Assembly: GCF_009677585.1 (NCBI RefSeq)
Contig: NZ_WKYV01000019.1
Location: 9,942-73,941 of the forward strand
Direction of reading: 5' to 3'
Source of the DNA: Lactonifactor sp. BIOML-A5
GTDB taxonomy: Bacteria > Bacillota > Clostridia > Lachnospirales > Lachnospiraceae
Length of the DNA stretch: 64,000 nucleotides
The translations under genes and the position numbers were made by a program. The notes under the pieces are model-generated. The model worked only from the letters and a program-made list of their open reading frames with translations, was not told the DNA's origin and did not search any database. Shown piece after piece: positions 9,230 to 24,631 of the stretch (position 1 is its first letter; every line of letters starts with the position of its first letter).

Positions 9230-11002
9230 ATGAAAAGATGGATGGAATGGTTTCAGAACCATTCGCTGCGTTTTAAAATGGTGGTGCTGCTGTTTGCGGT
9301 AGTGGTTGTACTTCAGGTGTTTAACGGGCTTGTATTTACCTCTATTGTGTCAAATAAATTTGAGGAGAATATATCGGAGTCAAATTTAAAAACGGTGCAG
9401 CAGATGGCTATTAATCTGAACCAGGCCATGGAGGATATTGTAGATGAGATGGTTCCCATACGGGACGAGGTGCTCAGCCGGCAGATTCTCAATGACGGAG
9501 AAGAGGATTCCAACGATTATATCAGCCAGTATATAGTATATCAGGGAATGTTTAATCAACTCATAGCAGCAGATAATAACTATCAGTTCATAAATTCCAT
9601 GCTGATTCTCAACGGCAGCCAGAACTATACCTTTGTACTGGACGAGTATCTCAAGCTCAACGGGGAGCCCCTTTTTGAGAAAATTCTTAAAGACAACAAG
9701 ATGACAAAGCAATGTCAGTGGGGAGCGCCTGTTCCGGACAGCTACTTTTTTTCTAGAGATAAGGAACAGGTAATCAGTATCATAATGCCGGTTTACAGAT
9801 ACGGGGAGGTAAAAAGTATGCTGATTGTAAATCTCAGAGAGGAGGCAATCCGCAAATATCTGGAGAAGCTTGGAGGGGGCGACAGTACACTGATGCTTCA
9901 ATTTGACAGAGATAATGCAGTGTTTGGACAGCCTGAACAGTGGGAAAGATTTACCCCTGAGGAGCAGAAGACATTGATGAAGTTTGAAGGCTGGGAGGAA
10001 GTAGAGGAGATTGGCAGCAGCGTTGCTATGAGCAGCCTGCTGTCCGTGAACCAGTGGAAGATTTCTATGGTTACAGCCAAAAGCAGTATCAGCAGCAGTG
10101 CAAAGGTACTCTCGCAGTATATTATTGTAATCATATTTACCACAGGGATCGTGCTTTTTGTGTGCGTATCCTATATTGTATTTATTGTTACGAAGCCAAT
10201 CAAAAAAATGACGGAAACCATAGAGGCGAACCGGCATACCAGGCAGATCACCCATCGCTTTCACCCCAGATACAGAGATGAGGTAGGGGTGCTTGCAGCA
10301 GCATACAATCAGCTGATGGATGAGATTCAGCAGCTGATGGCGGATATTGAAAAAGAGCAGATACAAAGCCGGAAGAATTATGTGAAAATGCTGCAGATGC
10401 AGATAAAGCCGCATTTCTTATATAATACTCTGGAGGCAGCCAAATTCCTGGTGGAGATGGGGGACCCCAACGGAATTGAAATGCTTACTACGGTAGGAAA
10501 ATTTTACAAACTAAGTCTCAGCGGAATCTATGATCAGGTAACCATCCGGGAGGAGACAGAACATCTGACTTGTTATCTCCAGATTCTCAAACTCAGGTAC
10601 AATTCGAAATATGAGTATTCCGTAGAGGTGGATGAAAAAATCATGGAGAATGAAATTATCAAGTTTTCCCTTCAGCCGCTGGTGGAAAATGCAGTATACC
10701 ATGGGATCAAGCGGCAGAGAAAAAAGGGATTTATTAAAGTCCTGGGGTATCAGGAAGAGAATATGATTGTTCTTGCAGTATGGGACAATGGTGCGGGAAT
10801 AGAAAAAGAGAAGCTGGAAGCACTTCAAAAGAAACTCGGATTTGCGGAGAATATTCAGACGGCGGACCACATTGGGGTCATGAATGTACACCAGAGAATC
10901 CGGATGCAGTATGGAGAACCCTACGGGCTTTCCATCAGCAGTGAAGAAGGGGTATTTACAAGAGCGGAAGTAAGGCTTCCTGTGAGAAAAATGCGGGATT
11001 GA
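9230..11002 (+). CDS. YesM-type sensor histidine kinase
   Basis: A 590-residue membrane sensor kinase. It has an N-terminal helix (about residues 16-36), a large extracellular Cache-like sensor, a second helix near 300-320, then HAMP. The His_kinase domain carries QIKPHFLYN with His395 as the phosphorylated residue. The ATPase has N-box LVENAVYHG (Asn487) and G-box DNGAGI. Kinases of this family sense external carbohydrate, often through a binding protein. It is followed directly by its YesN regulator and sits behind the sugar-acid operon, which it probably controls. Confidence 0.93.
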   Translation: MKRWMEWFQNHSLRFKMVVLLFAVVVVLQVFNGLVFTSIVSNKFEENISESNLKTVQQMAINLNQAMEDIVDEMVPIRDEVLSRQILNDGEEDSNDYISQYIVYQGMFNQLIAADNNYQFINSMLILNGSQNYTFVLDEYLKLNGEPLFEKILKDNKMTKQCQWGAPVPDSYFFSRDKEQVISIIMPVYRYGEVKSMLIVNLREEAIRKYLEKLGGGDSTLMLQFDRDNAVFGQPEQWERFTPEEQKTLMKFEGWEEVEEIGSSVAMSSLLSVNQWKISMVTAKSSISSSAKVLSQYIIVIIFTTGIVLFVCVSYIVFIVTKPIKKMTETIEANRHTRQITHRFHPRYRDEVGVLAAAYNQLMDEIQQLMADIEKEQIQSRKNYVKMLQMQIKPHFLYNTLEAAKFLVEMGDPNGIEMLTTVGKFYKLSLSGIYDQVTIREETEHLTCYLQILKLRYNSKYEYSVEVDEKIMENEIIKFSLQPLVENAVYHGIKRQRKKGFIKVLGYQEENMIVLAVWDNGAGIEKEKLEALQKKLGFAENIQTADHIGVMNVHQRIRMQYGEPYGLSISSEEGVFTRAEVRLPVRKMRD

Positions 11003-11016
11003 AAGGGGTGGCGGGC

Positions 11017-12618
11017 ATGTATAAACTTTTAATTGCAGATGATGATGAGATCATCTGCAGAGGATTGGGGACTTGTATTCCTTGGGAGGAGAATAATATT
11101 GAGATAACGGGGCTCGTCTATGACGGAGAGATGGCTCTGGAGTGTGTGGAGCGTGAGAAACCGGATATTGTGATTGTTGATATTAATATGCCCTTTATGG
11201 ATGGGATTGAGTTTTCTTATGCTGTGAGGCAAAACTATCCTGAGATAAAAATAATAATGCTGACGGCATACAAAGAATTCGCGTATGCACAGAAGGCAGT
11301 CAAACTTCAGGTGTTTGAATATCTCACAAAGCCTTTTACCAATGAGGAAGTGCTGGAGGCTGTGAGGCGTGCGGCAGATGCATTGGAGGAAGAGAGAAAT
11401 TACCGAAGCAGGATACAGAGAAACCTGGGGATGATTCAGGAAAAGAATCTGGAGGAGCTGACTCTCTACGGGACTGTAGAAGAAGAGACTATAAAAAACA
11501 GCGGAATCTGTTCCCCTGAAAATTATTTCCAGGCGGTTATCTTGTATCTGAGAAGGATACCCGGTGAAAAAGAGGGCGGAAAACATGCATTGATTGAGGA
11601 TGAGGTGGCGCTGCGCATGGCGGCCGATAAGCTGCGGACACTGATAAGCAGGGAGAAAGACTGCAGCCTGTTCCTGCAAAGCAACCGGATTGTATTAGTA
11701 TTCGAATATAAGGACAGAAACGCAGGCAAAAAAGTTAGAGAACGCATTACCGGGATAATGGGGGAAATTGCTAAAGAGGATACTGTATTTCTTGCAGGAG
11801 GCGTTGGCAGGGTATGTCATGGCGCTGAGAGACTGCCGTCCTCTTACCAGGAAGCGGTCTACGCATTGGAGCAGCGGTATGGCTATGGAAACCGGAGCGT
11901 CATTCTGTACACGGAGGTTCAGGGCAAGGCGGCGGAGTATGACGTGGAACTTCCCGCTGTCAGAAAAAGGCTGCAGGAGGGCGTGCAGCAGCGAAGTTCG
12001 GAAAAAATACGTCAGGAAGTGGAATGCTTGTTTCAGAAATTAAAAAGAACAGAGAGGGCAAACTTGCCGTCAGTACAGTTCCTGCTTGTAGAGCTTCTGC
12101 GGTTTTGCTGGGAAATGACGGAAGAGGGAGAGTTGTATGAAACCTTTCTGAAACAGTATGGACAGCTGTTCTCCAGGATGATAGCCGCCAGGAATCTGTG
12201 GGAACTAAGAGAAGCGGCAGATATGTATTTTAATAATTTATACAGCTATTTAGACGCTCAGAATACTACAGACATAGAAAAACGGGTAAACCAGGCAGTA
12301 GAATTTATTAAAGAGAACTTTCCGGATCCGGATCTAAATTTGAATGATGTGGCCAGACATGTGAACCTGAGCGCCAGCTATCTTGGCAATTCGATCAAAA
12401 AGTATAAGAAAACGTCGTATGTCAGTCTGCTAAACCAAATCCGCATTGACAATGCCAAAAAGCTGCTGGCAAGACCGGACATTAAAACCTATGAGGTGGC
12501 ATTTCTGGTGGGATTCAATTCTTCCCAATACTTTAGCAGCAGCTTTAAAAAGAGTACGGGAATGACTCCCGGGGCGTACCGGGAGAGTGCGTTTGCAAAG
12601 CAGAATGGTGTTGGGTAG
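11017..12618 (+). CDS. YesN-type response regulator with AraC DNA-binding domain
   Basis: A 533-residue regulator. The receiver domain has the acidic pocket DDD at residues 8-10, phospho-acceptor Asp55 (VIVDINMPFMDG) and Lys in YLTKPF. A long middle segment follows, then two C-terminal AraC helix-turn-helix motifs (LNDVARHVNLSASYLG and YEVAFLVGFNSSQYFS). The frame is open from TTG 10999, but ATG 11017 fits the family start MYKLLIADDDE and the AAGGGGTGG ribosome site. It is the partner of the YesM gene just upstream. Candidate binding sites are the 23-bp-spaced repeats at 1640-1674. Confidence 0.93.
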   Translation: MYKLLIADDDEIICRGLGTCIPWEENNIEITGLVYDGEMALECVEREKPDIVIVDINMPFMDGIEFSYAVRQNYPEIKIIMLTAYKEFAYAQKAVKLQVFEYLTKPFTNEEVLEAVRRAADALEEERNYRSRIQRNLGMIQEKNLEELTLYGTVEEETIKNSGICSPENYFQAVILYLRRIPGEKEGGKHALIEDEVALRMAADKLRTLISREKDCSLFLQSNRIVLVFEYKDRNAGKKVRERITGIMGEIAKEDTVFLAGGVGRVCHGAERLPSSYQEAVYALEQRYGYGNRSVILYTEVQGKAAEYDVELPAVRKRLQEGVQQRSSEKIRQEVECLFQKLKRTERANLPSVQFLLVELLRFCWEMTEEGELYETFLKQYGQLFSRMIAARNLWELREAADMYFNNLYSYLDAQNTTDIEKRVNQAVEFIKENFPDPDLNLNDVARHVNLSASYLGNSIKKYKKTSYVSLLNQIRIDNAKKLLARPDIKTYEVAFLVGFNSSQYFSSSFKKSTGMTPGAYRESAFAKQNGVG

Positions 12619-13929: not shown

Positions 13930-15552
13930 ATGTTAAAAATAGTAGTTGTTGATGATGAAGAGATCATCTGTGATTTAATCTGTGCTTTAATTGACTGGGA
14001 AAAATATCAGATGCAGCTGCTGGGCTGTGTGTATGACGGAGAGGAAGCCTTTGAGGTCATCTGCGATAAGCGACCGGATGTAGTAATAACGGATATTCGT
14101 ATGCCTGGGATGGACGGATTGGAGATGATAAAAAAGGCAAGAGAGGAGAAGATAGAGGCTCAGTTCCTGATTTTAAGCGGCTATAAAGATTTCTCTTATG
14201 CACAGGAAGCTATCCGATTAGGAGCTGCTGCCTATTTGCTGAAACCCATCGAAGAAGAGGAACTTCTGAATACCCTCTTGAAGATTCAGGAGAAAAATGA
14301 AATTGCAATGGAGCAGTCAAAGGAGAAGCAGGCGCTGAACCAGCAGCTTGTGGACAGCAGGCATAGGCTGTGGCATCAGTTTTTGACGGATTTTCTGGAA
14401 GGAAGAGAGACTGCAAAGTATGGACTGAAGGAAGTAACAGAAGAAGAGATTAACAGGGTGTTTGGACCAAAATTTTGCGGGGGCCTGTACCGGGCAGCGG
14501 TGTTAAGATGGGATAATCCATACGGAAGCATCACAGAGGAGGAGTCCAGGTATCTTACCGGAAAGTGTATCGACTTTTTTTGCACCTGCCTTCCTGAGTC
14601 AATGGTTTGGTATGCCGCAGAAACGAAGGAATGCCAATTGGTGCTTTTAAACGGTACAGAGGAGGAAACGGGGCAGGAAGTTTGGACTGCATTTCATAAA
14701 ATGCAGGCTTACGCCTCTGCGCTCAATGAGGGCGTGGTGACCGCAGGACTCAGTCGTACTGCACAGGTACCGGCCATGGTGCCTGCTTTGGCAAAAGAGG
14801 CGGAGAAGGCCTGCAGCATGCGGATTCTAAAAGGGTGCGGGAAGATATTGGAATATGATGCAGCTGCATTCTCCCCTTGCAAGGTGGAGGAGCTTCTGAG
14901 TATGAAAAAGGCGAAGGAGCTGCAGGAGCGTCTGGAACTTATGGATTGGGAACAGATGAAAGATGCAGCAAGGGAGCTTTATGAAAATATACCGGGAGAG
15001 GCGGATCCGGATGTGTACTATCAGCTGCATCTGAGAATTCTGACAGAGGTACTTCAGGGTTTGAGCTATCTGGGAGCAGAGGTGGCGGATATGCGCGGGC
15101 TTATAGAGCGAATGTGCAGAGAACTGCGCTGCTGCAGCAGTATCGCTCAGATTATCAGAAAGACGAACGGGCAGATACAGGAAATTCTATTGTCCTGCAA
15201 AGAACAGTCCGTCTTAAAGGAGAACCGTCTGGCCAACATTGCAAAAGAGTACATCAGAAAGAATTATAATAAAGATATCCGTCTGGCGGATGTGGCGGAA
15301 CAGGTCTATTTGAGCCCAACCTATTTCAGCGCTATTTTTAAAAGGGAAACAGGAATGAATTTTAATGAGTATTTGACAGAATACCGGATAGAAATGGCCA
15401 AGGAGTTTTTAAAGAATCTGGAATACAAAGTGACTGAGGTGGGAGAGCAGGTAGGGTATGAGGATTCCAAATATTTCAGCAAAATATTTCGGAAAATGGT
15501 GGGGATATCCCCCAGGGATTACAGAAAGTTATATATGCGGGATAAGATATGA
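13930..15552 (+). CDS. YesN-type response regulator with AraC domain (second)
   Basis: 540 residues: receiver domain (acidic DDEE at 8-11, phospho-acceptor Asp55 in VITDIRMPGMDG, Lys in YLLKPI), a variable middle, then two AraC helix-turn-helix motifs (LADVAEQVYLSPTYFS and VTEVGEQVGYEDSKYFS). Its last four bases overlap the YesM-type kinase that follows. This order, regulator then kinase, is the reverse of the pair at 9230-12618. It probably controls the RbsABC-type operon starting at 17328. Confidence 0.93.
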   Translation: MLKIVVVDDEEIICDLICALIDWEKYQMQLLGCVYDGEEAFEVICDKRPDVVITDIRMPGMDGLEMIKKAREEKIEAQFLILSGYKDFSYAQEAIRLGAAAYLLKPIEEEELLNTLLKIQEKNEIAMEQSKEKQALNQQLVDSRHRLWHQFLTDFLEGRETAKYGLKEVTEEEINRVFGPKFCGGLYRAAVLRWDNPYGSITEEESRYLTGKCIDFFCTCLPESMVWYAAETKECQLVLLNGTEEETGQEVWTAFHKMQAYASALNEGVVTAGLSRTAQVPAMVPALAKEAEKACSMRILKGCGKILEYDAAAFSPCKVEELLSMKKAKELQERLELMDWEQMKDAARELYENIPGEADPDVYYQLHLRILTEVLQGLSYLGAEVADMRGLIERMCRELRCCSSIAQIIRKTNGQIQEILLSCKEQSVLKENRLANIAKEYIRKNYNKDIRLADVAEQVYLSPTYFSAIFKRETGMNFNEYLTEYRIEMAKEFLKNLEYKVTEVGEQVGYEDSKYFSKIFRKMVGISPRDYRKLYMRDKI

Positions 15553-17246
15553 AAATGGTAAATAAAATCAGAACCTGGTACCGAAAAAGGAAAGAATATT
15601 ATCATGTGCAGGCAGGGCTTAGGGGGATTCTGCTTGGGTGGGGTTTTTGCATGATACTGCTGATCACGGGGTTTGCACTGGCTGCGTTTCAGATTGCTGC
15701 CCGGGAGGCCCGGAGGGAGAAAAACAGTGCATATGAGACAATGGTTTCCTACGTGACCGGTGAAATAGAGAAGAAATGTGCACTTCTCAGCGGACTGGCA
15801 GAAGAGGCCGCAGAGATTCCACGGGAGCACAGGGAGGAACTGGTTCAGGCCTTTGAGGGGATGGATGGACTGGCAGTCTGGGAAAATGGGGAAATCGCCT
15901 GTTTTCCAAGAGAAGAAGCACTGTTTTTGGGATTTCTGGAGAGTCATAAAGGACAGTTGACAGATCCCGGGAACGGACAGAAGCTATTGATGGGAACCAG
16001 CAGCAGTTCTCGGTACCGTGTGGGAAATCTTCAGCTGGGGTGGATACATTCGGAGGCGGAGAAAAACATTATGGTCTCCAGTACCCTGGAGGTTTCCATG
16101 GATTCCGCCTGTGAATTTTACATATATAGTCCGGACAGCAACATGGTATATCCTCAGGGATACCTAAGGCCCGATTTTTCCGAGGTAAAAGCAAAACTTA
16201 GGGGAAGCTACCAGGGCAAAGCAATCCGGATTCCGTCTTACACGGTATTTCTGCAGAAGAGCAGCACCTATGGTTTTTATGGGCTTCTCTGTGTGAGAAA
16301 CGAAAAGCTGGAAACAGAATTTACCGGCTATCTATGGCTGCTGGGAACCTCGGTCGGTATACTTCTGATTCTACTGCTGGGTACGTTTGTGATCTTTAAA
16401 AAGAAGGTATATAATCCTGTGATACATGTGGAACATGCGATTAACGGGATTCTTAACGGCAATCAGGGACTGGAAGTAGAGATTGACGATTCCAGTGAGC
16501 TGGCCTCTGCGGGGAGGGCTGTTAATTCAATGATAACCCATGTTGAGAATCTGACTTCCAGGGAGTACCAGTCAGAGATACTGAAGCGCCAGGCGGAGCT
16601 GAATGCACTTCAGAATCAGATCAATCCTCATTTTCTGTACAACACCCTTGAGTCAATCCGTGGTCTGGCTTTGCGGGAGGGGTCGAAAAATGCTGCTAAT
16701 ATGACAAAAGCATTGGCAAATCTCTTTCGGTATAACATTGATAACCGGAGTCTTACCGTTACTCTGCAGGAAGAGCTGACAAATATTGATAATTATTTCG
16801 TGATACAGAAGTACAGGTTTTCCAATAAGATCCGGCTTGTGACATATATTGACGAAGAGAATCCCCAGCTGAGACAGTATCAGGTGCCCCATATGGTGCT
16901 GCAGCCTATAGTAGAAAACGCAGTATGTCATGGACTGGAGACAAAGCGGGGAGGAGGAACCATTGTCATCATGGTTATGGCAACAGAGAGCAGGCTGATT
17001 ATTACAGTCAGTGACGACGGCCTGGGGATGGATGAGAAAACCCTGGACCGGATTGAAGAACAGCTTCAGAGGGGCTACACCTCCGGCAGAGCCGGAGAGC
17101 GGACGGGTATTGCTCTGTACAATGTAAATGAGAGAATTCGTATACTCCATGGGGAGGATTACGGGATTCATGTGCACAGCACAAAGGGGATCGGCACAGA
17201 AGTAGAGGTGGTTTTGCCTCTGATCTGTCAGGAGTCAAAATCATAA
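15549..17246 (+). CDS. YesM-type sensor histidine kinase (second)
   Basis: 565-residue membrane kinase with a first helix around residues 35-57, an extracellular sensor of about 220 residues, a second helix near 260-280, HAMP, and a His_kinase domain with QINPHFLYN (His361). The ATPase has LQPIVENAVCHG and DDGLGM. It is translationally coupled to its regulator by a four-base overlap and is followed by a terminator, so the pair forms its own transcript ahead of the RbsABC-type operon. Confidence 0.93.
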   Translation: MKMVNKIRTWYRKRKEYYHVQAGLRGILLGWGFCMILLITGFALAAFQIAAREARREKNSAYETMVSYVTGEIEKKCALLSGLAEEAAEIPREHREELVQAFEGMDGLAVWENGEIACFPREEALFLGFLESHKGQLTDPGNGQKLLMGTSSSSRYRVGNLQLGWIHSEAEKNIMVSSTLEVSMDSACEFYIYSPDSNMVYPQGYLRPDFSEVKAKLRGSYQGKAIRIPSYTVFLQKSSTYGFYGLLCVRNEKLETEFTGYLWLLGTSVGILLILLLGTFVIFKKKVYNPVIHVEHAINGILNGNQGLEVEIDDSSELASAGRAVNSMITHVENLTSREYQSEILKRQAELNALQNQINPHFLYNTLESIRGLALREGSKNAANMTKALANLFRYNIDNRSLTVTLQEELTNIDNYFVIQKYRFSNKIRLVTYIDEENPQLRQYQVPHMVLQPIVENAVCHGLETKRGGGTIVIMVMATESRLIITVSDDGLGMDEKTLDRIEEQLQRGYTSGRAGERTGIALYNVNERIRILHGEDYGIHVHSTKGIGTEVEVVLPLICQESKS

Positions 17247-17264
17247 AAAAGAACACCTTTTCAT

Positions 17265-17300
17265 AAGGCGGTCTGTTTTTTAAAATAGACCGTCTTTTTA
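17265..17300 (+). terminator. Rho-independent terminator after YesM
   Basis: GCGGTCTGTTTT pairs with AAAATAGACCGTC, followed by T5. It separates the two-component pair from the transport operon. Confidence 0.82.
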
Positions 17301-17327
17301 TAATTAAAATATAACCGGAGGATAAAA

Positions 17328-18806
17328 ATGAACAGGGAGATCTTAAGGTTACAGTCCATTACCCAGAGACTCTATGGAAACAAAGTGCTTTCTAACATTT
17401 ATTTCAATCTGTATGAAGGTGAGATTCATGGGATCATTGGGATTAATGGAGCAGGCAAATCCACTTTAGCCCGGGTCATCGCCGGATGGCAGCAGGGATA
17501 TGAGGGCACTATTTTTCTGGAAAATCAGAAGGTACGTCTTGCATCGGCAGAAATGGCAATGCATATGGGAATCGCTATGGTACCCCAGGATCCGGACACA
17601 ATCAGCACCATGAGTATTGCAGAGTATATCTTTACGCTGAGAAAGGAAGCATCAAAACGTGTCCTGCTTCGAAGGAGAGAGATGGAAGGCAGAACCATTA
17701 AGCTGCTGGAGGAGATGGGATATCCCCTGCCTCCGGGGAGGACCATGGGGGAATTGACCAGAAGCCAGAAAAAATTTATGTCAATCGCTAAAACCCTCAC
17801 TTATAATCCCAAAATACTTATTTTTGATGACACCGAGATTGGCATGGAGCCTGAAGACGTTAATTTGTTCTGGGGGATTATTAAGAAACAGTGTTTAAAA
17901 GGGATATCCTGTATCGTGATTTCACAGAATCTGCCGAGACTTTCAGCGGAGTGCGGCAGGATAACGGTTCTAAGAGGCGGGAGGATTGCGGGCACGGTAA
18001 AAAACGGCAGCTGCCCGGAGGCTCATATTATGAACCTGGTACTGGGCACGAAGGATAGAGAGGGTGACAAAATCTCAGAGATACATCTGGGAAGGGAGAT
18101 ACTCCGCCTGGAGGACATCAGAGGAATTTATCTGAAGAAGGTTAGTTTTTCCATAGCCCAGGGAGAAATTCTGGGACTGACAGGGGCAGATGACGCGGGA
18201 AAGGAAGAGCTGGGAGATATTCTCTATGGCTGTAAAAAGTACCGGTCGGGAAGCCTATATTTCTGCGGTCAGCCTGTTACAGTGAAAGACTCACATGAGG
18301 CAGTGCGTATGGGGATTGGCTTTATCCCCGAAGAGAGGAATAGGCTTCTTTTGGAAAACCAGACGGTAAAGGATAATCTTACTTTTCTGCAGATGCAGAC
18401 AGCAAAAAATAGGTTTGGATACCTGAAGCCAAGCATAGCCGGGTATCTGGCAAGAGACTGGTGCGAAAAGGAGAATATCAGTGAGTTCGCCAAGAATACT
18501 CTTAATGAGGTGGGCGGCAATATCCGGCAAAAGCTGCTGCTTGGCCGATGGCAGGATAAAACTTTAAAGCTGCTTCTTCTAAACCATCCTACCAACGGGC
18601 TGGAGCAAAAGGAACGAAGGAAGACGCTGGAAAGAATATTGGAGTACAGCAAAAACGGCACGGCAGTATTGCTGATTACCAATGATCTGCAGGAGCTGGT
18701 CTCCCTGTGTCACAGAGTAATTGTCCTGAAAAAAGGCGAGATCTCCGGAGAGATTTATAAAGAAGAATTGTCAGAGATGGCGGTAACAAAACTTAAACTT
18801 ATGTAA
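17328..18806 (+). CDS. Degenerate tandem ABC ATPase (RbsA/XylG-like), probably not catalytic
   Basis: 492 residues in the two-domain RbsA layout, but with most catalytic motifs lost. In domain 1 the Walker A is intact (GINGAGKST, Lys44), the signature LSGG is replaced by LTRSQ (143-147) and the Walker B D-E is D-D (Asp167-Asp168). In domain 2 the P-loop is GADDAGKEE, with Glu293 where Ser/Thr should be, the signature is VGGNIRQK, and the Walker B D-E is Asn419-His420. No frameshift or stop occurs, so it is maintained. An intact RbsA lies three genes downstream (21042). It may be a regulatory or structural partner of the importer rather than a motor. That role is inference. Confidence 0.85.
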   Translation: MNREILRLQSITQRLYGNKVLSNIYFNLYEGEIHGIIGINGAGKSTLARVIAGWQQGYEGTIFLENQKVRLASAEMAMHMGIAMVPQDPDTISTMSIAEYIFTLRKEASKRVLLRRREMEGRTIKLLEEMGYPLPPGRTMGELTRSQKKFMSIAKTLTYNPKILIFDDTEIGMEPEDVNLFWGIIKKQCLKGISCIVISQNLPRLSAECGRITVLRGGRIAGTVKNGSCPEAHIMNLVLGTKDREGDKISEIHLGREILRLEDIRGIYLKKVSFSIAQGEILGLTGADDAGKEELGDILYGCKKYRSGSLYFCGQPVTVKDSHEAVRMGIGFIPEERNRLLLENQTVKDNLTFLQMQTAKNRFGYLKPSIAGYLARDWCEKENISEFAKNTLNEVGGNIRQKLLLGRWQDKTLKLLLLNHPTNGLEQKERRKTLERILEYSKNGTAVLLITNDLQELVSLCHRVIVLKKGEISGEIYKEELSEMAVTKLKLM

Positions 18807-18834: not shown

Positions 18835-19920
18835 ATGAACAGCAGAGAACGTGTACAGGCAGTTCTGACCGGAAAACCGGCGGATCGTCTGCCTGTAGAT
18901 TTTCATTTCGCAGATGATACGGCCCTGCAGGTATTCGCCGGTCATTATGGCATGGGAGAGGAAGAATTTTTGACATATTTGGAAAATGATGTGCGTCATT
19001 TGTATGTGATGGACGAGGTGGAACTGTTTTTGCAGAATAGGCCGCTGATGAGATATGCTTTCGATCATGGATTCGCTTACCCAAATCCAGAAGATCCTGC
19101 TCTCTGCTTTGATCAGTGGGGGATCGGATGGAATATGGTGAGCGACGGGCAGCTTCCGGTTTCCAGTCCCCTGATGGACTGGGATGGATTGGACAAGGTA
19201 CAGGCACCGGATCCGAATAGAAAAGAGAACTTTTATGTGGTAGATACCAACATTCAGGGGTACATAGACAGGAATCTCGCTGTTGACGTGGCACAATATT
19301 TCGGCCCCTTTGAGAAGGGATATCTCATACGGGGCTTTGAGGATTTTATGATGGACATGTACGAGGAGACGGAGAAGGTAGAGATCCTTTTAGACAGGAT
19401 TACCCAGTATCGTGTGGAAATGGCAGAGGAGATCTGTCAGAGAGGAGTTACCTATGGGCATAGCGGGGATGATTTTGGCACCCAGGGAGGGCCCATTATG
19501 TCGCTGGCTCTGTGGAGGAAACTTTTTAAACCCCGTCTGGAACAAATCTGGAGTGTGTATAAAAGGCATGGACTCCCGGTGGTACACCACAGCTGCGGGG
19601 ACTGTGAACAATTTCTGGATGAAATGATTGAGATTGGACTGGATGCTATCCATCCAGTTCAGGCCGCAGCTATGGATATCCGTGAACTGTCCGGGCGTTA
19701 CGGAAGCCGTCTTGTGTTTTACGGGGGGTTTGACACCCAGGATATACTCACATTTGGAACACCAGAACAGGTGAGAGCCAATGTGAAGGAGACGATTGAA
19801 ACTCTGGGCCAATATGGAAGGATGTTCTGCGCACCCATTAATATTATGAGAAATGTGCCTCTGGAGAACTTCGAGGCGCTGGTGGAAAGCGTACATCAAT
19901 ATAGATATGCAGAGAACTAA
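18835..19920 (+). CDS. UroD/MtaA-family protein with methyltransferase-type zinc motif
   Basis: A 361-residue cytosolic protein of the uroporphyrinogen decarboxylase fold. It has VVHHSCGD, giving His252-x-Cys254, and a later Cys332 in FCAPINIM. This H-x-C...C pattern is the zinc site of methylcobamide-dependent methyltransferases such as MtaA/MtbA. Heme synthesis is unlikely here. No corrinoid protein is encoded nearby, so the acceptor is unknown. It sits between the degenerate ATPase and the RbsB-like lipoprotein of the same operon. It could demethylate an imported methylated sugar or polyol, which is inference. Confidence 0.78.
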   Translation: MNSRERVQAVLTGKPADRLPVDFHFADDTALQVFAGHYGMGEEEFLTYLENDVRHLYVMDEVELFLQNRPLMRYAFDHGFAYPNPEDPALCFDQWGIGWNMVSDGQLPVSSPLMDWDGLDKVQAPDPNRKENFYVVDTNIQGYIDRNLAVDVAQYFGPFEKGYLIRGFEDFMMDMYEETEKVEILLDRITQYRVEMAEEICQRGVTYGHSGDDFGTQGGPIMSLALWRKLFKPRLEQIWSVYKRHGLPVVHHSCGDCEQFLDEMIEIGLDAIHPVQAAAMDIRELSGRYGSRLVFYGGFDTQDILTFGTPEQVRANVKETIETLGQYGRMFCAPINIMRNVPLENFEALVESVHQYRYAEN

Positions 19921-19944: not shown

Positions 19945-20973
19945 ATGAGAAGAATGTTAGCTATTTTGTTGGCAGCAGTATTAGCTATGGCAGGTCTTAG
20001 CGGATGCGGAGACAAAAAGGAAACAGGGACAGCGGAGACGTCGGGGGGAAGTGAGAGCGGGGAGAAAAAGGATGCTTCGGATTTTAAGGTAGGTTTATCC
20101 ATGAATGTGCTGGTACATCCCTCCTATATCACAATGGAAGCCGAGATCCGAAAAGGATGTGAAGATCTTGGATATGAATATGTGTGTACCGATGCCCAGG
20201 AAAGCCTGGATAAGCAAATTTCAGATATTGAGGATCTGGCGGCCCAGGGATGCGATGTGATTTTTGTAAACACTTACGATCCAGATGTTCTGACACCGGT
20301 TATAAATAATGTTGCCGCCCAGGGAATCCGCGTGATCGCTGTGGACAATGCGCTGAGCGATGAGGCGCAGCTGGCCACTACCATCCAGGCAGACAATCAC
20401 CAGAATGGAGTACTGGTAGGCAACTATGTGGCTGATACTCTGAAAGGCCAGGATATAAAGATTGTCTGTATCAGCGGCGCAAAGGGTGCAGAAGTATCAC
20501 GTGTCCGCCGTTCCAGCTTTATTGAGGGCATCGTGGAAGAACAGCTGAGACAGGGAAGCGATGCCAAGGTGGAGATCGTAGCACAGGCATATACCGAGTG
20601 GTTTGCAGATGCAACTGTGACAGCAATGGAAGATATTATGGCTCTGAATGAAGAGTTTAACGTAGTATTTGCCGAGGCGGATGTTATGGCCATTGAGTGT
20701 TATAAGATCCTGCAGGATGCTGGGCTGTTGGATAAGGTTATGATAGTGGCAGACGCCGACGGGCAGAAAGAGGCTTTTGAACTGATTAAGGAAGGGGGAG
20801 CCTATAAGGCCACCGGACTGAACTCCATGACGCTTCTGGGACAGACAGCAGTGGAGACAGCCCAGAAAATTCAGCAGGGCGAAACTTCCTTCCCTTACAG
20901 AACCTATACGCCGAGTGCATGCGTAACCATAGACAATGTAGACGAGTACTACGACCCTGATTCAGCATTCTAA
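19945..20973 (+). CDS. RbsB-like substrate-binding lipoprotein
   Basis: 342 residues with a lipoprotein signal (lipobox LSGC, Cys21), a short Gly/Ser/Lys tether and a periplasmic-binding-protein type 1 fold: KVGLSMNVLVHPSY at the start, then DVIFVNTYDPD and GIRVIAVDNA. It is lipid-anchored and delivers a sugar or polyol to the RbsC/RbsA pair downstream. The dehydrogenase at the end of the operon hints at a tetritol or related polyol. Confidence 0.92.
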   Translation: MRRMLAILLAAVLAMAGLSGCGDKKETGTAETSGGSESGEKKDASDFKVGLSMNVLVHPSYITMEAEIRKGCEDLGYEYVCTDAQESLDKQISDIEDLAAQGCDVIFVNTYDPDVLTPVINNVAAQGIRVIAVDNALSDEAQLATTIQADNHQNGVLVGNYVADTLKGQDIKIVCISGAKGAEVSRVRRSSFIEGIVEEQLRQGSDAKVEIVAQAYTEWFADATVTAMEDIMALNEEFNVVFAEADVMAIECYKILQDAGLLDKVMIVADADGQKEAFELIKEGGAYKATGLNSMTLLGQTAVETAQKIQQGETSFPYRTYTPSACVTIDNVDEYYDPDSAF

Positions 20974-21041: not shown

Positions 21042-22562
21042 ATGAAAAAACCATACGCAGTTGAGATGGAGAAGATCACCAAGACCTTTGGCGGAGTCCA
21101 TGCGCTAAAGGAGGTATCTTTTCAAATTGTAAAGGGAACCATTCATGCGCTGGTAGGTGAAAATGGGGCTGGAAAATCTACCTTGATGAAAATATTGTCC
21201 GGTGCATATACCAAAGACAGCGGAAAGATTCTCATAGAGGGAAAAGAGATTTCGGAAGGCAGCACTTTGGAAATGAAAAAGGCAGGCGTGGGAATTATCT
21301 ATCAGGAATTTGCCCTTGCCCCGGATCTTACGGTGGCGGAAAATATCTTTATTAACCGTATGAACCTGGGAAAAGGCTTTATATCCTGGAAGGAACTGAA
21401 CCATAAGGCGGGAGAAATCATTGATAAGATAGGATTTCAGATTGAACCTTGTCAGAAAGTAGAGGAATTGAGTGTAGCCTTTCAGCAGATTGTAGAGATT
21501 GCCAAAGCTCTGGGGGAGGATGCCCGCGTCCTGGTGTTGGATGAGCCTACCGCCGTATTATCGCCCTATGAGACGGAAAAGCTATTTCAGGTTTTGAGGC
21601 ATCTGAGAGAGCAGGGAACCAGTATTGTATATATTTCTCACCGGCTTGATGAAGTATTTCAGCTGTCCGATGAGATTACGGTACTCCGGGACGGAGAGGT
21701 GGTCAGCCATAACCGCACGGAGGAAACGTCAATGGACAAGATTGTCTCTGATATGCTGGGGCGAAGCGTACAGTCCCTGTATCCGGAAAAGACAGCGGCT
21801 GGAGATGAGACAGTGCTGGAGGTGAAAGACCTGAACCTGGGCAATATGGTACGGGGTGTAAGCTTTGCACTGCACGAGGGAGAGATATTTGGAATTGCGG
21901 GGTTGGTGGGCAGCGGAAAAACGGAGACAGCCCGGGCCATTTTCGGAGCAGACAAGGGTGCACGGGGAGAGATTGTGTTAAAGGGTAAGAAAATACGTCC
22001 GGCATCTCCTTATGAAGGAGTTAAAAACGGAATTACCTACTTATCCGAGAGCAGAAAAGAGGACGGGGTTCTGCTGGATATGAAAATACGGGAAAATGTT
22101 ACCATGGCATCCATGAAAAAGGTGAGTAAATGCATGGTATTTCATATAAAAAAAGAAAAGAAGTATGTGGAGGAAATGATTCGCAGGCTCTCTATCAAAT
22201 CTAACGGTTCGGAAACTCTTACAGGGGATCTGTCAGGGGGCAACCAGCAGAAGGTATCCCTTGCTAAGTGGCTCAGCGTGGACAGCGATGTACTGATTCT
22301 CGACGAACCCACCCGCGGGGTGGACATTGGAGCAAAAATGGAGATTTATGGAATTATTCATGAATTAGCCAGGCAGGGAAAATCAATCATTATTGCCTCC
22401 TCAGAAATGGAAGAGATCTGCGGTCTGTGCCATCGGGTGCTGGTGATGCACAAAGGTCTGGCTAAGGGTATTCTGGAACAGGAAGAACTCACCAAACACA
22501 ATATTATTCACTGTTCTGTAGACAATCGTTCGGAACAATCCCCTAAAGCAGGAGGTATATAA
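21042..22562 (+). CDS. RbsA-type tandem ABC ATPase (intact)
   Basis: 506 residues, two nucleotide-binding domains. Domain 1 has GENGAGKST, Q-loop YQEFA and VLDEPTAVL, with an LSVAFQQ signature. Domain 2 has GLVGSGKTE, LSGGNQQK and LDEPTRGVD. It powers the RbsC-type channel. The frame is open from 20991, but ATG 21042 follows AAGGAG and starts at MKKPYAVEME. It stops three bases before the permease gene. Compare with the decayed paralogue at 17328. Confidence 0.94.
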   Translation: MKKPYAVEMEKITKTFGGVHALKEVSFQIVKGTIHALVGENGAGKSTLMKILSGAYTKDSGKILIEGKEISEGSTLEMKKAGVGIIYQEFALAPDLTVAENIFINRMNLGKGFISWKELNHKAGEIIDKIGFQIEPCQKVEELSVAFQQIVEIAKALGEDARVLVLDEPTAVLSPYETEKLFQVLRHLREQGTSIVYISHRLDEVFQLSDEITVLRDGEVVSHNRTEETSMDKIVSDMLGRSVQSLYPEKTAAGDETVLEVKDLNLGNMVRGVSFALHEGEIFGIAGLVGSGKTETARAIFGADKGARGEIVLKGKKIRPASPYEGVKNGITYLSESRKEDGVLLDMKIRENVTMASMKKVSKCMVFHIKKEKKYVEEMIRRLSIKSNGSETLTGDLSGGNQQKVSLAKWLSVDSDVLILDEPTRGVDIGAKMEIYGIIHELARQGKSIIIASSEMEEICGLCHRVLVMHKGLAKGILEQEELTKHNIIHCSVDNRSEQSPKAGGI

Positions 22563-22565
22563 GAC

Positions 22566-23522
22566 ATGGAAAAGACAGGAAAGCACAAAATTACTGTGAG
22601 TGAGTTTTTTGAAAAATGGAATACCGTTATCGTGTTTTGTGTTATTGTAATGATAGCTTCACTATTAACAACAAACTTTATGCAGGTGCAGAACCTGACC
22701 AATCTTCTGAAGCAGAATGCAGGGATCGGGATTATTGCAATGGGAATGCTTCTGGTTATACTTACTGGAGGGATTGATCTCTCCGTGGGCTCCATTGTGG
22801 GTGTGGGAAATGTTATCTTTGCGTATATGATGCAGACACACGGTCTGGGATATTCCATTGGAGTAACCCTGCTGGTGGGAGCGGCCTGCGGGGCAATCTC
22901 GGGATACTTCGTGGCATACCGGAATCTGCAGCCTTTTGTAGTTACGCTGTCTGTTATGACGGTGGCCAGAGGCTATGCCTACATAATCTGCAAGGGGGCA
23001 TCTATCTCCATTAAGCACCCGGACTTCTTGGCTTTCGGATATGGTACGTTTTTGGGAATTCCCAAGCAGACATATCTCATGATTATTATCTTTCTGCTTA
23101 TTTGGTTTGTTCTGCGGTATACGACTTATGGACGTATAGTAACTGCCATTGGAAGCAATGAGGAAGCTGTGCGCTTATCAGGTATCCGCAGCAGGATCTA
23201 TAAGTTTTCTGTGTATGTGGTATCCGGGTTATTTGCGGCGACAGCGGCTATATTAAATTCTTCAAGGACGGGAGTCGGTTCTCCCCTTACCGGAGACGGC
23301 TTTGAGCTGGATGCAATAGCCATTACGGTAATCGGCGGTGTCAGTCTGAACGGCGGGAAAGGTACTGCCGGAAGAGTACTGATCGGCGTCTTTGTGATTG
23401 GCATGATTGGCAATATTATGAACCTGACAAAAGTATCTGCTTATACACAGCAGGTAGTAAAGGGCCTGATCATTTTGTGTGCGGTATTTATGCAGACGCT
23501 TCAGAAAAAGTCCAGAGCATAG
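22566..23522 (+). CDS. RbsC-type sugar ABC permease
   Basis: 318 residues, eight to ten membrane helices, BPD_transp_2 family. The conserved stretches GGIDLSVGSIVG, AYRNLQPFVVTL and the coupling motif GSNEEAVRLSGI are present. It forms the channel, probably as a homodimer, for the RbsB-like lipoprotein and the RbsA ATPase directly upstream. Confidence 0.94.
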   Translation: MEKTGKHKITVSEFFEKWNTVIVFCVIVMIASLLTTNFMQVQNLTNLLKQNAGIGIIAMGMLLVILTGGIDLSVGSIVGVGNVIFAYMMQTHGLGYSIGVTLLVGAACGAISGYFVAYRNLQPFVVTLSVMTVARGYAYIICKGASISIKHPDFLAFGYGTFLGIPKQTYLMIIIFLLIWFVLRYTTYGRIVTAIGSNEEAVRLSGIRSRIYKFSVYVVSGLFAATAAILNSSRTGVGSPLTGDGFELDAIAITVIGGVSLNGGKGTAGRVLIGVFVIGMIGNIMNLTKVSAYTQQVVKGLIILCAVFMQTLQKKSRA

Positions 23523-23542
23523 GTCTAGAGAGGATGGAAAAG

Positions 23543-24631
23543 ATGGAAAAAGAGAGAAGGATACCTGCTGTTATGAAGGCATTGGTGGCATATGGAAAGG
23601 ATGACTATCGTCTGGAGATCGAGTACCCCACCCCGGAATGCGGACCGGATGACATTATAATTAAGACAGAGGCCTGCGGTATCTGTGCTGGAGATCTCAA
23701 ATGCAGCCATGGAGCTGCTATGTTTTGGGGGGATGAGATGCAGCCGCCCTGGGTAAAACCTCCCTTTATTCCTGGTCATGAGTTTTTTGGACATATTGTG
23801 GAGTTGGGAGAAAATGTTAAGGACTTTGTGCTGGGGGAACGGCTGATCGCAGATCAGATCGTACCCTGCGGAGCGTGCAGGTTCTGCAGGGACGGACATT
23901 ACTGGATGTGCCAGCCTCATAATATCTTTGGGTTTCAGGGATGCAACAATGGCGGAATGGCTGAATATGTGAGATATCCCAAGACTGCTGTACTATCCCG
24001 GCTACCGGAGGAAATGGGGGTGGAGGAGGCACTTTTAATTGAACCCTATGGATGTTCCAAACATGCAGTAGACCGGGGACAGGTGACGAATGAAGATATC
24101 CTGGTGATCTCAGGTGCGGGAACCCTGGGACTGGGGATGGTTACTTATGCCAGAAGGAAGAATCCTAAGAAACTGATAGTTTTGGACATGAAAGAAGAAA
24201 GGCTCCAGAAGGCCATGGAATTCGGGGCTGACATGGTGTGGAATCCGGGTACCTGTAATGTCGTAAAAAACATCATGGAACTGACGGATGGATACGGATG
24301 TGATGTCTATATAGAAGCTACCGGCCACCCCTCCAGCGTTATCCAGGGCCTGAATATGGTGAGAAAGCTGGGACGCTTTGTAGAATTCAGTGTATTCGGA
24401 GCCCCCACAACAGTAGACTGGTCTGTCATTGGAGATCGGAAGGAACTGGATATTTTAGGATCCCATCTAAGTCCCTACTGCTATCCTTTCGTCATAGAAA
24501 ATATTATAAGTAAAAATCTGAAAACAGAAGGAGTTGTCTCCGCCATGTTCCCCATTGAGGAATGGGAAAAAGCATTTGAGTATGCCACAGGAAAATATGG
24601 GGATCTGAAGGTGGCAATTGACTTTAGATAA
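23543..24631 (+). CDS. Zinc-dependent dehydrogenase, erythritol/L-threitol dehydrogenase-like
   Basis: A 362-residue medium-chain dehydrogenase. The catalytic zinc site is in GICAGDLKCSHG and GHE. Structural-zinc cysteines are in VPCGACRFCRDGHYWMC and the nucleotide site is GAGTLGLG. The insertion around HGAAMFWGDEMQPPWVKPP resembles the erythritol/L-threitol dehydrogenase (EltD) branch. Several in-frame ATGs exist (23534, 23543, 23573). The one at 23543 has the best spacing from GAGAGG. As last gene before a strong terminator it probably oxidises the polyol brought in by the RbsABC system. Confidence 0.85.
   Translation: MEKERRIPAVMKALVAYGKDDYRLEIEYPTPECGPDDIIIKTEACGICAGDLKCSHGAAMFWGDEMQPPWVKPPFIPGHEFFGHIVELGENVKDFVLGERLIADQIVPCGACRFCRDGHYWMCQPHNIFGFQGCNNGGMAEYVRYPKTAVLSRLPEEMGVEEALLIEPYGCSKHAVDRGQVTNEDILVISGAGTLGLGMVTYARRKNPKKLIVLDMKEERLQKAMEFGADMVWNPGTCNVVKNIMELTDGYGCDVYIEATGHPSSVIQGLNMVRKLGRFVEFSVFGAPTTVDWSVIGDRKELDILGSHLSPYCYPFVIENIISKNLKTEGVVSAMFPIEEWEKAFEYATGKYGDLKVAIDFR

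Follow-up and report, generated by a model that had tools for sequence, protein, structure and literature searches.

The window (the whole 64,000-nucleotide stretch of Lactonifactor sp. BIOML-A5 DNA analysed here) places a two-component pair upstream of a sugar-type ABC importer, with all of the genes concerned on the forward strand. The response regulator YesN2 (13930-15552; 540 residues, AraC-type DNA-binding domain, Pfam Response_reg and HTH_18) is followed by the 565-residue histidine kinase YesM2 (15549-17246), identified from Pfam His_kinase and HATPase_c together with a hydropathy scan. The next gene 3' of YesM2 encodes an RbsA-like tandem pseudo-ATPase of 492 residues (17328-18806) with two ABC_tran stretches in Pfam and a GGAGG stretch shortly 5' of its ATG. 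This protein aligned over its full length with the NCBIfam AraG, YtfR and RbsA models, in every case below the cut-off. Downstream lie a UroD/MtaA-like gene (18835-19920; Pfam URO-D, NCBIfam matches below cut-off), a sugar-type substrate-binding protein, or SBP (19945-20973; Peripla_BP_4), an intact RbsA-type tandem ATPase (21042-22562; Pfam, NCBIfam and motif alignment), an RbsC-type permease (22566-23522; BPD_transp_2) and a zinc-type dehydrogenase (23528-24631; NCBIfam matches below cut-off). The pseudo-ATPase gene is close to a complete set of RbsA, RbsC and SBP, with RbsA the third gene downstream. A second YesM/YesN pair (9230-12618) lies near the first (13930-17246), so that the two pairs fit within about 8 kb.

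The gap between YesM2 and the pseudo-ATPase gene is 81 bases long and contains a strong hairpin resembling an intrinsic terminator (17265-17296, forward strand), with 14 pairs followed by a T run. The stretch from 17244 to 17312 folds at -19 kcal/mol (z -5.43), and the hairpin has the longest stem in a terminator scan that returned 10 sites in total against 8.5 expected by chance. L. longoviformis DSM 17459, whose DNA is approximately 92% identical to the window over the compared region, keeps the hairpin with a few changes. With this hairpin between it and YesM2, the pseudo-ATPase gene may be co-expressed with the importer instead of the kinase. A weak promoter-like match (17258-17286) overlaps the hairpin, from a scan whose total of 13 against 16 expected was no more than chance.

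The operon was also sought elsewhere through its other genes. Outside Lactonifactor, relatives of the window SBP reached at most 33% identity in 392 genomes (E 1e-30), and a binding-protein search of a protein collection returned relatives at 89%, 68% and 43-49% identity. Among the matches listed from 299 genomes, relatives of the window UroD reached at most 37% identity over the full length and 42% over parts. UroD/MtaA-like genes were repeatedly found close to genes of sugar-type ABC importers, both in the window (18835-19920) and at loci L033, L036, L038, L114 and L174. Open reading frames of 619-666 residues at L105, L109, L112, L119 and L120 also matched the binding-protein query, and these are much longer than a usual binding protein.

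Motif state and maintenance of the window pseudo-ATPase

The open reading frame, translation and alignment confirmed where the earlier note had placed this gene (17328-18806), its frame and its motif readings. We calibrated the motifs on an alignment of 122 sequences comprising the window protein, its 99% twin (P0002), 119 other listed homologues and the window RbsA, where the listed homologues are the best 120 of 7273 matches. The first nucleotide-binding domain (NBD1) keeps its Walker A, GINGAGKST (17439-17465), and K44, S45, Q87 and D167 are all intact. Its Walker B reads D167-D168, with Asp in place of the catalytic Glu (17826-17831), its switch His is replaced by Gln (Q200, 17925-17927), and LTRSQ occupies the signature position. 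NBD2 has a broken P-loop (GADDAGKEEL, 18183-18212), a broken signature (VGGNIRQK for LSGGNQQK, 18510-18533) and N419-H420 in place of D-E at Walker B (18582-18587).

These departures are not equally unusual. E168, H200 and the Ser of the NBD2 signature were each found in 120 of the 122 sequences, the exceptions being the window protein (with D and Q at the first two positions) and its twin. The same two sequences differ from the remaining 120 in the fourth-position Gly of the NBD2 P-loop, which is Asp in the window protein. At the NBD1 signature the aligned sequences mostly have LSVA or LSIA, the NBD2 Walker A lysine position is R in 104/122 (the K of the window protein is a minority state, 5/122), His occurs at the NBD2 H-loop position in none of the 122, and N replaces the NBD2 Walker B Asp in nine sequences besides the window protein and its twin. 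Thus, the state of the NBD1 signature and NBD2 Walker A is close to what is usual in the family, but it is unusual to lose the NBD1 Glu and His or the NBD2 signature. One degenerate site each has been reported for RbsA and NupO of B. subtilis (PMC11466899). Within the alignment, a clade of RbsA-like ATPases (P0007, P0012, P0021, P0030 and P0051) has N-Q-P-T for D-E-P-T at the NBD2 Walker B.

The earlier note had described nearly all catalytic residues as lost. The normally competent site has indeed suffered losses, but the description is overstated because K44, S45, Q87 and D167 remain. Given that the NBD1 Walker A, Q87 and D167 persist, ATP binding is possible for the window protein and efficient hydrolysis is unlikely, judging from its residues. 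The protein is also unusual in its Y100 and S152, positions at which almost all canonical and pseudo-RbsAs carry N and E, respectively, in the alignment used for the tree with 31 pseudo-RbsAs; among the other sequences of the 122-sequence alignment, position 100 is N in 114/120 and position 152 is E in 90/120.

The L. longoviformis DSM 17459 orthologue is an intact open reading frame that is 93% identical and has the same losses. The two proteins differ by 35 substitutions, of which only I39N, I399V and L425M fall in the motif strings. Nei-Gojobori dN/dS against L. longoviformis was 0.100 over the full gene, with NBD1 at 0.084 and NBD2 at 0.120. The regulatory neighbours gave 0.080 (YesN2) and 0.077 (YesM2), and the downstream neighbours gave 0.073 (UroD), 0.020 (SBP), 0.073 (RbsA), 0.024 (RbsC) and 0.075 (dehydrogenase). 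The pseudo-ATPase evolves much like its regulatory neighbours. Since the L. longoviformis frame is intact with the same losses and dN/dS is 0.10, we conclude that the window gene is maintained under purifying selection. The open frame of 492 codons had earlier been taken as a sign of selection, and the low dN/dS and the lack of a stop or frameshift in two species bear this out.

RbsA-like pseudo-ATPases downstream of YesM kinases

Among the best 120 of 7273 matches, relatives of the window gene outside its own cluster were 25-32% identical to it. In one matched region of a related genome (G036) the gene order is YesN, a 351-residue YesM, a 483-residue RbsA-like protein without the motifs, RbsA, RbsC, SBP and dehydrogenase. 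We used the G036 pseudo-RbsA as a query against 299 genomes of the family and chose 34 regions by hand, mainly from the best matches. Three regions (L120, L121 and L123) contained an ordinary RbsA only and L124 repeats L114; the remaining 30 and G036 make 31 pseudo-RbsA loci in 25 genomes. A YesM gene was located on the same strand no more than 400 bases upstream in 31/31, and the gap was between -32 and +22 bases in 23/31 (first-ATG rule). The preceding YesM frame had at most 381 residues in all 31 loci, that of L110 being a 177-residue piece, and a complete RbsA was present in 28/31 regions. In a control set of 30 best-match loci, 25 were degenerate, all with an adjacent YesM, and five were ordinary RbsAs, none of which had a YesM within 1.5 kb.

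The converse test started from a short YesM as query in 150 genomes, taking 24 further listed loci (L155-L178) whose YesM frame did not exceed 408 residues, plus one weak match (L179). A full-length RbsA-like frame lay directly downstream of the short YesM in 23/24 loci, or 23/25 with L179, and the YesM of L166 had no RbsA-like gene downstream. Beyond the taxonomic family, a profile search of a class sample found a strong pseudo-RbsA in 7 of 245 genomes (L203-L209, 449-585 bits), each with YesN-YesM upstream, and the four ordinary RbsA loci examined from this search had no YesM within about 1.5 kb. Weaker matches in the class sample overlapped ordinary RbsAs.

In total, there were 61 YesM-linked loci in 42 genomes, a count that leaves out the window gene and its L. 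longoviformis counterpart. We scored three consensus motif strings (GxNGAGKST, DEP[TSGN] and SGGNxQK), and all three were absent in 60/61 loci, L174 being the exception. Some of the 60 have a recognisable NBD1 P-loop (e.g., L164 and L122), and none of the 53 aligned pseudo-RbsAs has all four of the NBD1 residues K, D, E and H. Two second ABC frames, in L095 (716 residues) and L091 (402 residues), were left uncounted by the length or motif filter. A complete RbsA occurred in the same fetched region at 46 of 54 loci. Two core members had general ABC matches in Pfam and, among the matches listed, only below-cut-off matches in NCBIfam.

AlphaFold2 modelled the window protein with confidence (pLDDT 87.6, pTM 0.71). 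A core pseudo-RbsA reached pLDDT 82.9 and pTM 0.50, and its lobe placement is uncertain because of the latter value. The PDB structures matched were fused or tandem ABC proteins, including OppD, DppD, EttA and P-glycoprotein, and nothing named RbsA was among the 50 structure matches listed for each model. A literature search of titles and abstract openings, which left most subscription journals uncovered, found no description of a YesM-linked pseudo-RbsA. RbsA-like pseudo-ATPases directly 3' of YesM, usually near a complete RbsA, thus appear from their sequences and gene order to constitute an undescribed family. The earlier note had asked whether related genomes show identical losses next to RbsBAC and UroD-like genes. 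This holds in L. longoviformis, but at other loci the losses are mostly more complete; a match to the window UroD was found in 2 of 54 fetched regions (L114 and L174).

Kinases, co-divergence and the placement of the window gene

Transmembrane segments were called with a simple hydropathy scan. Among the 54 linked YesMs, 45 had two peaks 3-26 residues apart (median 9), one had three, two had one and six had none. The latter six include the 177-residue piece of L110 and L161, whose frame reaches the contig end and has an odd beginning that resembles an HflX-type GTPase, perhaps through fusion or misassembly. YesM frames of 267-283 residues with no peak, each directly followed by a pseudo-RbsA, were observed at L156, L171, L176 and L177, and from their sequences these look like kinases without a transmembrane segment. 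The window YesM2 does not share the short form with almost no outer part that is typical of the core, as its peaks (27-45 and 264-282) are about 218 residues apart.

A kinase tree was built from 68 cores, of which 53 were short YesMs (L110 was dropped). The YesM2 core nested inside the short-YesM group, with support of 0.945 for a group of 56 that includes one long YesM (L181) and 0.147, 0.759 and 0.802 at the nodes further inward toward YesM2. The window's other kinase, YesM1, fell outside the kinases linked to pseudo-RbsAs.

For the 44 of 54 loci having all five genes (10 were left out because a gene was lacking or, for L110, incomplete), we correlated pairwise distances. Those of pseudo-RbsA correlated with YesN at 0.863, YesM at 0.799, RbsA at 0.627 and RbsC at 0.606, relative to reference values of 0.832 for YesM-YesN and 0.856 for RbsA-RbsC. 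In an earlier set of 26 loci with pseudo-RbsA, YesM and RbsA, leaving out 5 of the 31, none of 2000 permutations reached the observed values. By its history, pseudo-RbsA belongs to the signalling arm. The correlation with YesM dropped to 0.29 when YesN was held fixed and that with YesN was the higher of the two, which fits plain linkage.

The second cassette of L. longoviformis (L174:7392-10023) consists of YesN, a 408-residue YesM frame and a 491-residue RbsA-like frame, whose motifs are near-complete and in which Gln replacing the NBD2 Walker B Glu is the clear catalytic change. This cassette adjoins a divergent SBP-RbsC-RbsA-UroD set. Against a profile of canonical RbsA, the window RbsA scored 659 bits, L174 506, the window gene 390 and 53 others 79-279. 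All trees were built with FastTree and contain long branches and several moderate or low supports. The first ABC tree, which lacked L174, recovered the window gene as the sister of 31 pseudo-RbsAs (0.944). In the second, with 89 sequences including 11 of 46 partner RbsAs, L174 branched first (0.991), then the window gene (0.855) and then the rest (0.996). L174, the window gene and the core members thus form a graded series of decay. An origin from the N-Q-P-T ATPases (P0007, P0051 and others) was rejected, as its support of 0.603 in the first tree was gone after L174 was added. The best matches to P0051 in 249 genomes of the phylum were 44% identical.

A short N-terminal signature, E4-x-L-R7 (17337-17348 in the window gene), is common to the YesM-linked pseudo-RbsAs. 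E4 was present in 53/53 of them, L174 and the window gene, and in 2/33 canonical RbsAs of the same alignment and 4/120 of the 122-sequence calibration alignment. The alignment-free pattern E-x-[LFICV]-R near the start was found in 47/54 versus 1/46 partner RbsAs. Core membership was defined by the absence of all three motif strings. Because the window gene retains the NBD1 Walker A, we filed it as an early-branching relative rather than a core member. It is also atypical in having a long YesM and a terminator in between. In sum, the window gene is kept by selection and is best explained as an early offshoot of a family of pseudo-ATPases that derive from RbsA and accompany YesN-YesM, usually near an importer.

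A candidate adaptor between importer and kinase

The window protein resembles the RbsA-type tandem ATPases of CUT2 importers (RbsA, XylG, AraG, MglA and NupO) in its two fused NBDs, length and fold, and in sharing an operon with RbsC and a sugar-type SBP. It departs from them in that breakage extends to the site that is normally competent, and in that a complete RbsA is encoded three genes downstream; of the features of a working RbsA-type motor, it has the two fused ABC domains and lacks the NBD1 Glu and His and the NBD2 LSGGNQQK. In XylFII-LytS-YesN, sugar is sensed by three components, one of them a dedicated binding protein. Likewise, in CuaD-CuaS-CuaR a two-component pair and a transporter-type third protein control a sugar importer (PMC10384115). 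The third protein in those systems is a solute-binding protein on the extracellular domain of the kinase, whereas the protein here is cytoplasmic and related to ATPases, and the family's kinases mostly have next to no outer domain. Another link between transporter and receptor has been reported (PMC11109136). In Bce modules (BceAB with BceS and BceR), a two-component pair is also linked to a transporter, and the kinase, bound to the ABC transporter, is reported to take its signal from it (PMC10314905). Such modules need a functional BceAB, whereas here a dead extra ATPase stands in the signalling arm, and the window YesM2 keeps its outer domain. The transporter and kinase parts of Bce modules fall in families other than those that Pfam found here (BPD_transp_2, ABC_tran and His_kinase), and Bce-type kinases have almost no outer loop. 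These kinases have been called intramembrane sensing (PMC3023708).

The earlier note had proposed a regulatory ATPase-like subunit coupling the importer to the YesN-YesM pair. The order of the genes, the trees built independently from ABC proteins and from kinases, and the repeated occurrence across dozens of genomes partly support such a subunit tied to YesN-YesM, for which coupling would be a candidate role. The observed gene order, kinase shrinkage, purifying selection, catalytic losses and co-divergence suggest that a dead motor now helps to report on sugar rather than move it. Our favoured reading, although an even call, is that pseudo-RbsA is a non-catalytic adaptor reporting the state of the importer to YesM-YesN. 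Such an adaptor would keep the two-lobed NBD shape, dock on the importer permease in the manner of RbsA, on the YesM kinase or on both, and relay the substrate-loaded state of the importer, whereupon YesN would switch on the importer operon. With pseudo-RbsA relaying the importer state to them, most kinases of the family could then largely or wholly dispense with a sensor domain. The window copy, with its Walker A, may still bind ATP and use it as a switch without hydrolysing it efficiently; its kinase also has an outer domain of its own.

Several observations argue against an adaptor. YesM2 has a large outer domain, and an adaptor should therefore be needless for sensing. The hairpin and 81-base gap are unlike the mostly close or overlapping genes elsewhere, Y100 and S152 are unlike both canonical and pseudo-RbsAs, and L166 has a short YesM without an RbsA-like gene downstream. 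The helical subdomains that would dock on the permease are not clearly better kept than the rest: pseudo-RbsAs retain the canonical consensus at 0.39 in the NBD1 helical subdomain, 0.27 in that of NBD2, 0.30 in the rest and 0.23 in the motifs. Furthermore, pseudo-RbsA correlates more strongly with YesN than with YesM, and the trees combine long branches with several moderate or low supports.

Alternatively, the dead copy could occupy RbsC in place of RbsA and so damp or gate transport, with no direct contact to the kinase. This would agree with the predicted two-NBD fold, with the complete RbsA in 46/54 fetched regions and with the window gene standing first after the terminator-like hairpin, ahead of the transport genes. 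We regard such a decoy or brake as unlikely, given that divergence tracks YesN-YesM more than RbsA-RbsC and that the gene follows a YesM frame of at most 381 residues in every locus of the ABC-query set. Similarly unlikely is that the window gene is a paralogue confined to Lactonifactor that decayed alone, its grouping with pseudo-RbsAs reflecting long-branch attraction. Its branch is long, the support is 0.855, Y100 and S152 fit neither group, and no relative outside its own cluster exceeded 32% identity among the best 120 of 7273 matches. Independent loss is at odds with the shared gene order, the E4/R7 signature and the kinase tree, which was built from other genes and places YesM2 alike (with low support at one node).

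It is less probable still that the protein is a weak but working ATPase, serving as an alternative motor or ATP sensor for the importer, although the change of E to D may leave slow hydrolysis. The intact K44, S45, Q87 and D167 would allow for this, as would the near-complete motifs of the L174 cassette gene in L. longoviformis; set against them are an intact RbsA three genes downstream and changes in the catalytic Glu, the switch His and the NBD2 signature Ser that, among 122 sequences, are confined to the window protein and its twin. We rejected a young pseudogene whose stops have yet to break the frame as highly improbable, despite the many motif changes and a dN/dS slightly above that of RbsA, on the basis of dN/dS (0.10, with 89.5 synonymous and 37.5 non-synonymous changes relative to L. 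longoviformis), two species free of frameshifts and stops, and the GGAGG stretch before the ATG.

Extending the adaptor reading to the Clostridia, we tentatively propose, with some doubt, a widespread and undescribed three-component sensor in which the importer would be the receptor, the pseudo-ATPase would be the coupler replacing a sensor domain, and the kinase would have shrunk to two or no helices. Lactonifactor would then keep two early stages, the nearly intact L174 and the half-decayed window gene. If true, this would explain how short YesM kinases, some without a visible membrane part, answer to sugars outside the cell, and it would provide a natural series leading from a motor protein to a signalling part. 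It would also imply that some proteins labelled as sugar ABC ATPases in gut Clostridia are not motors.
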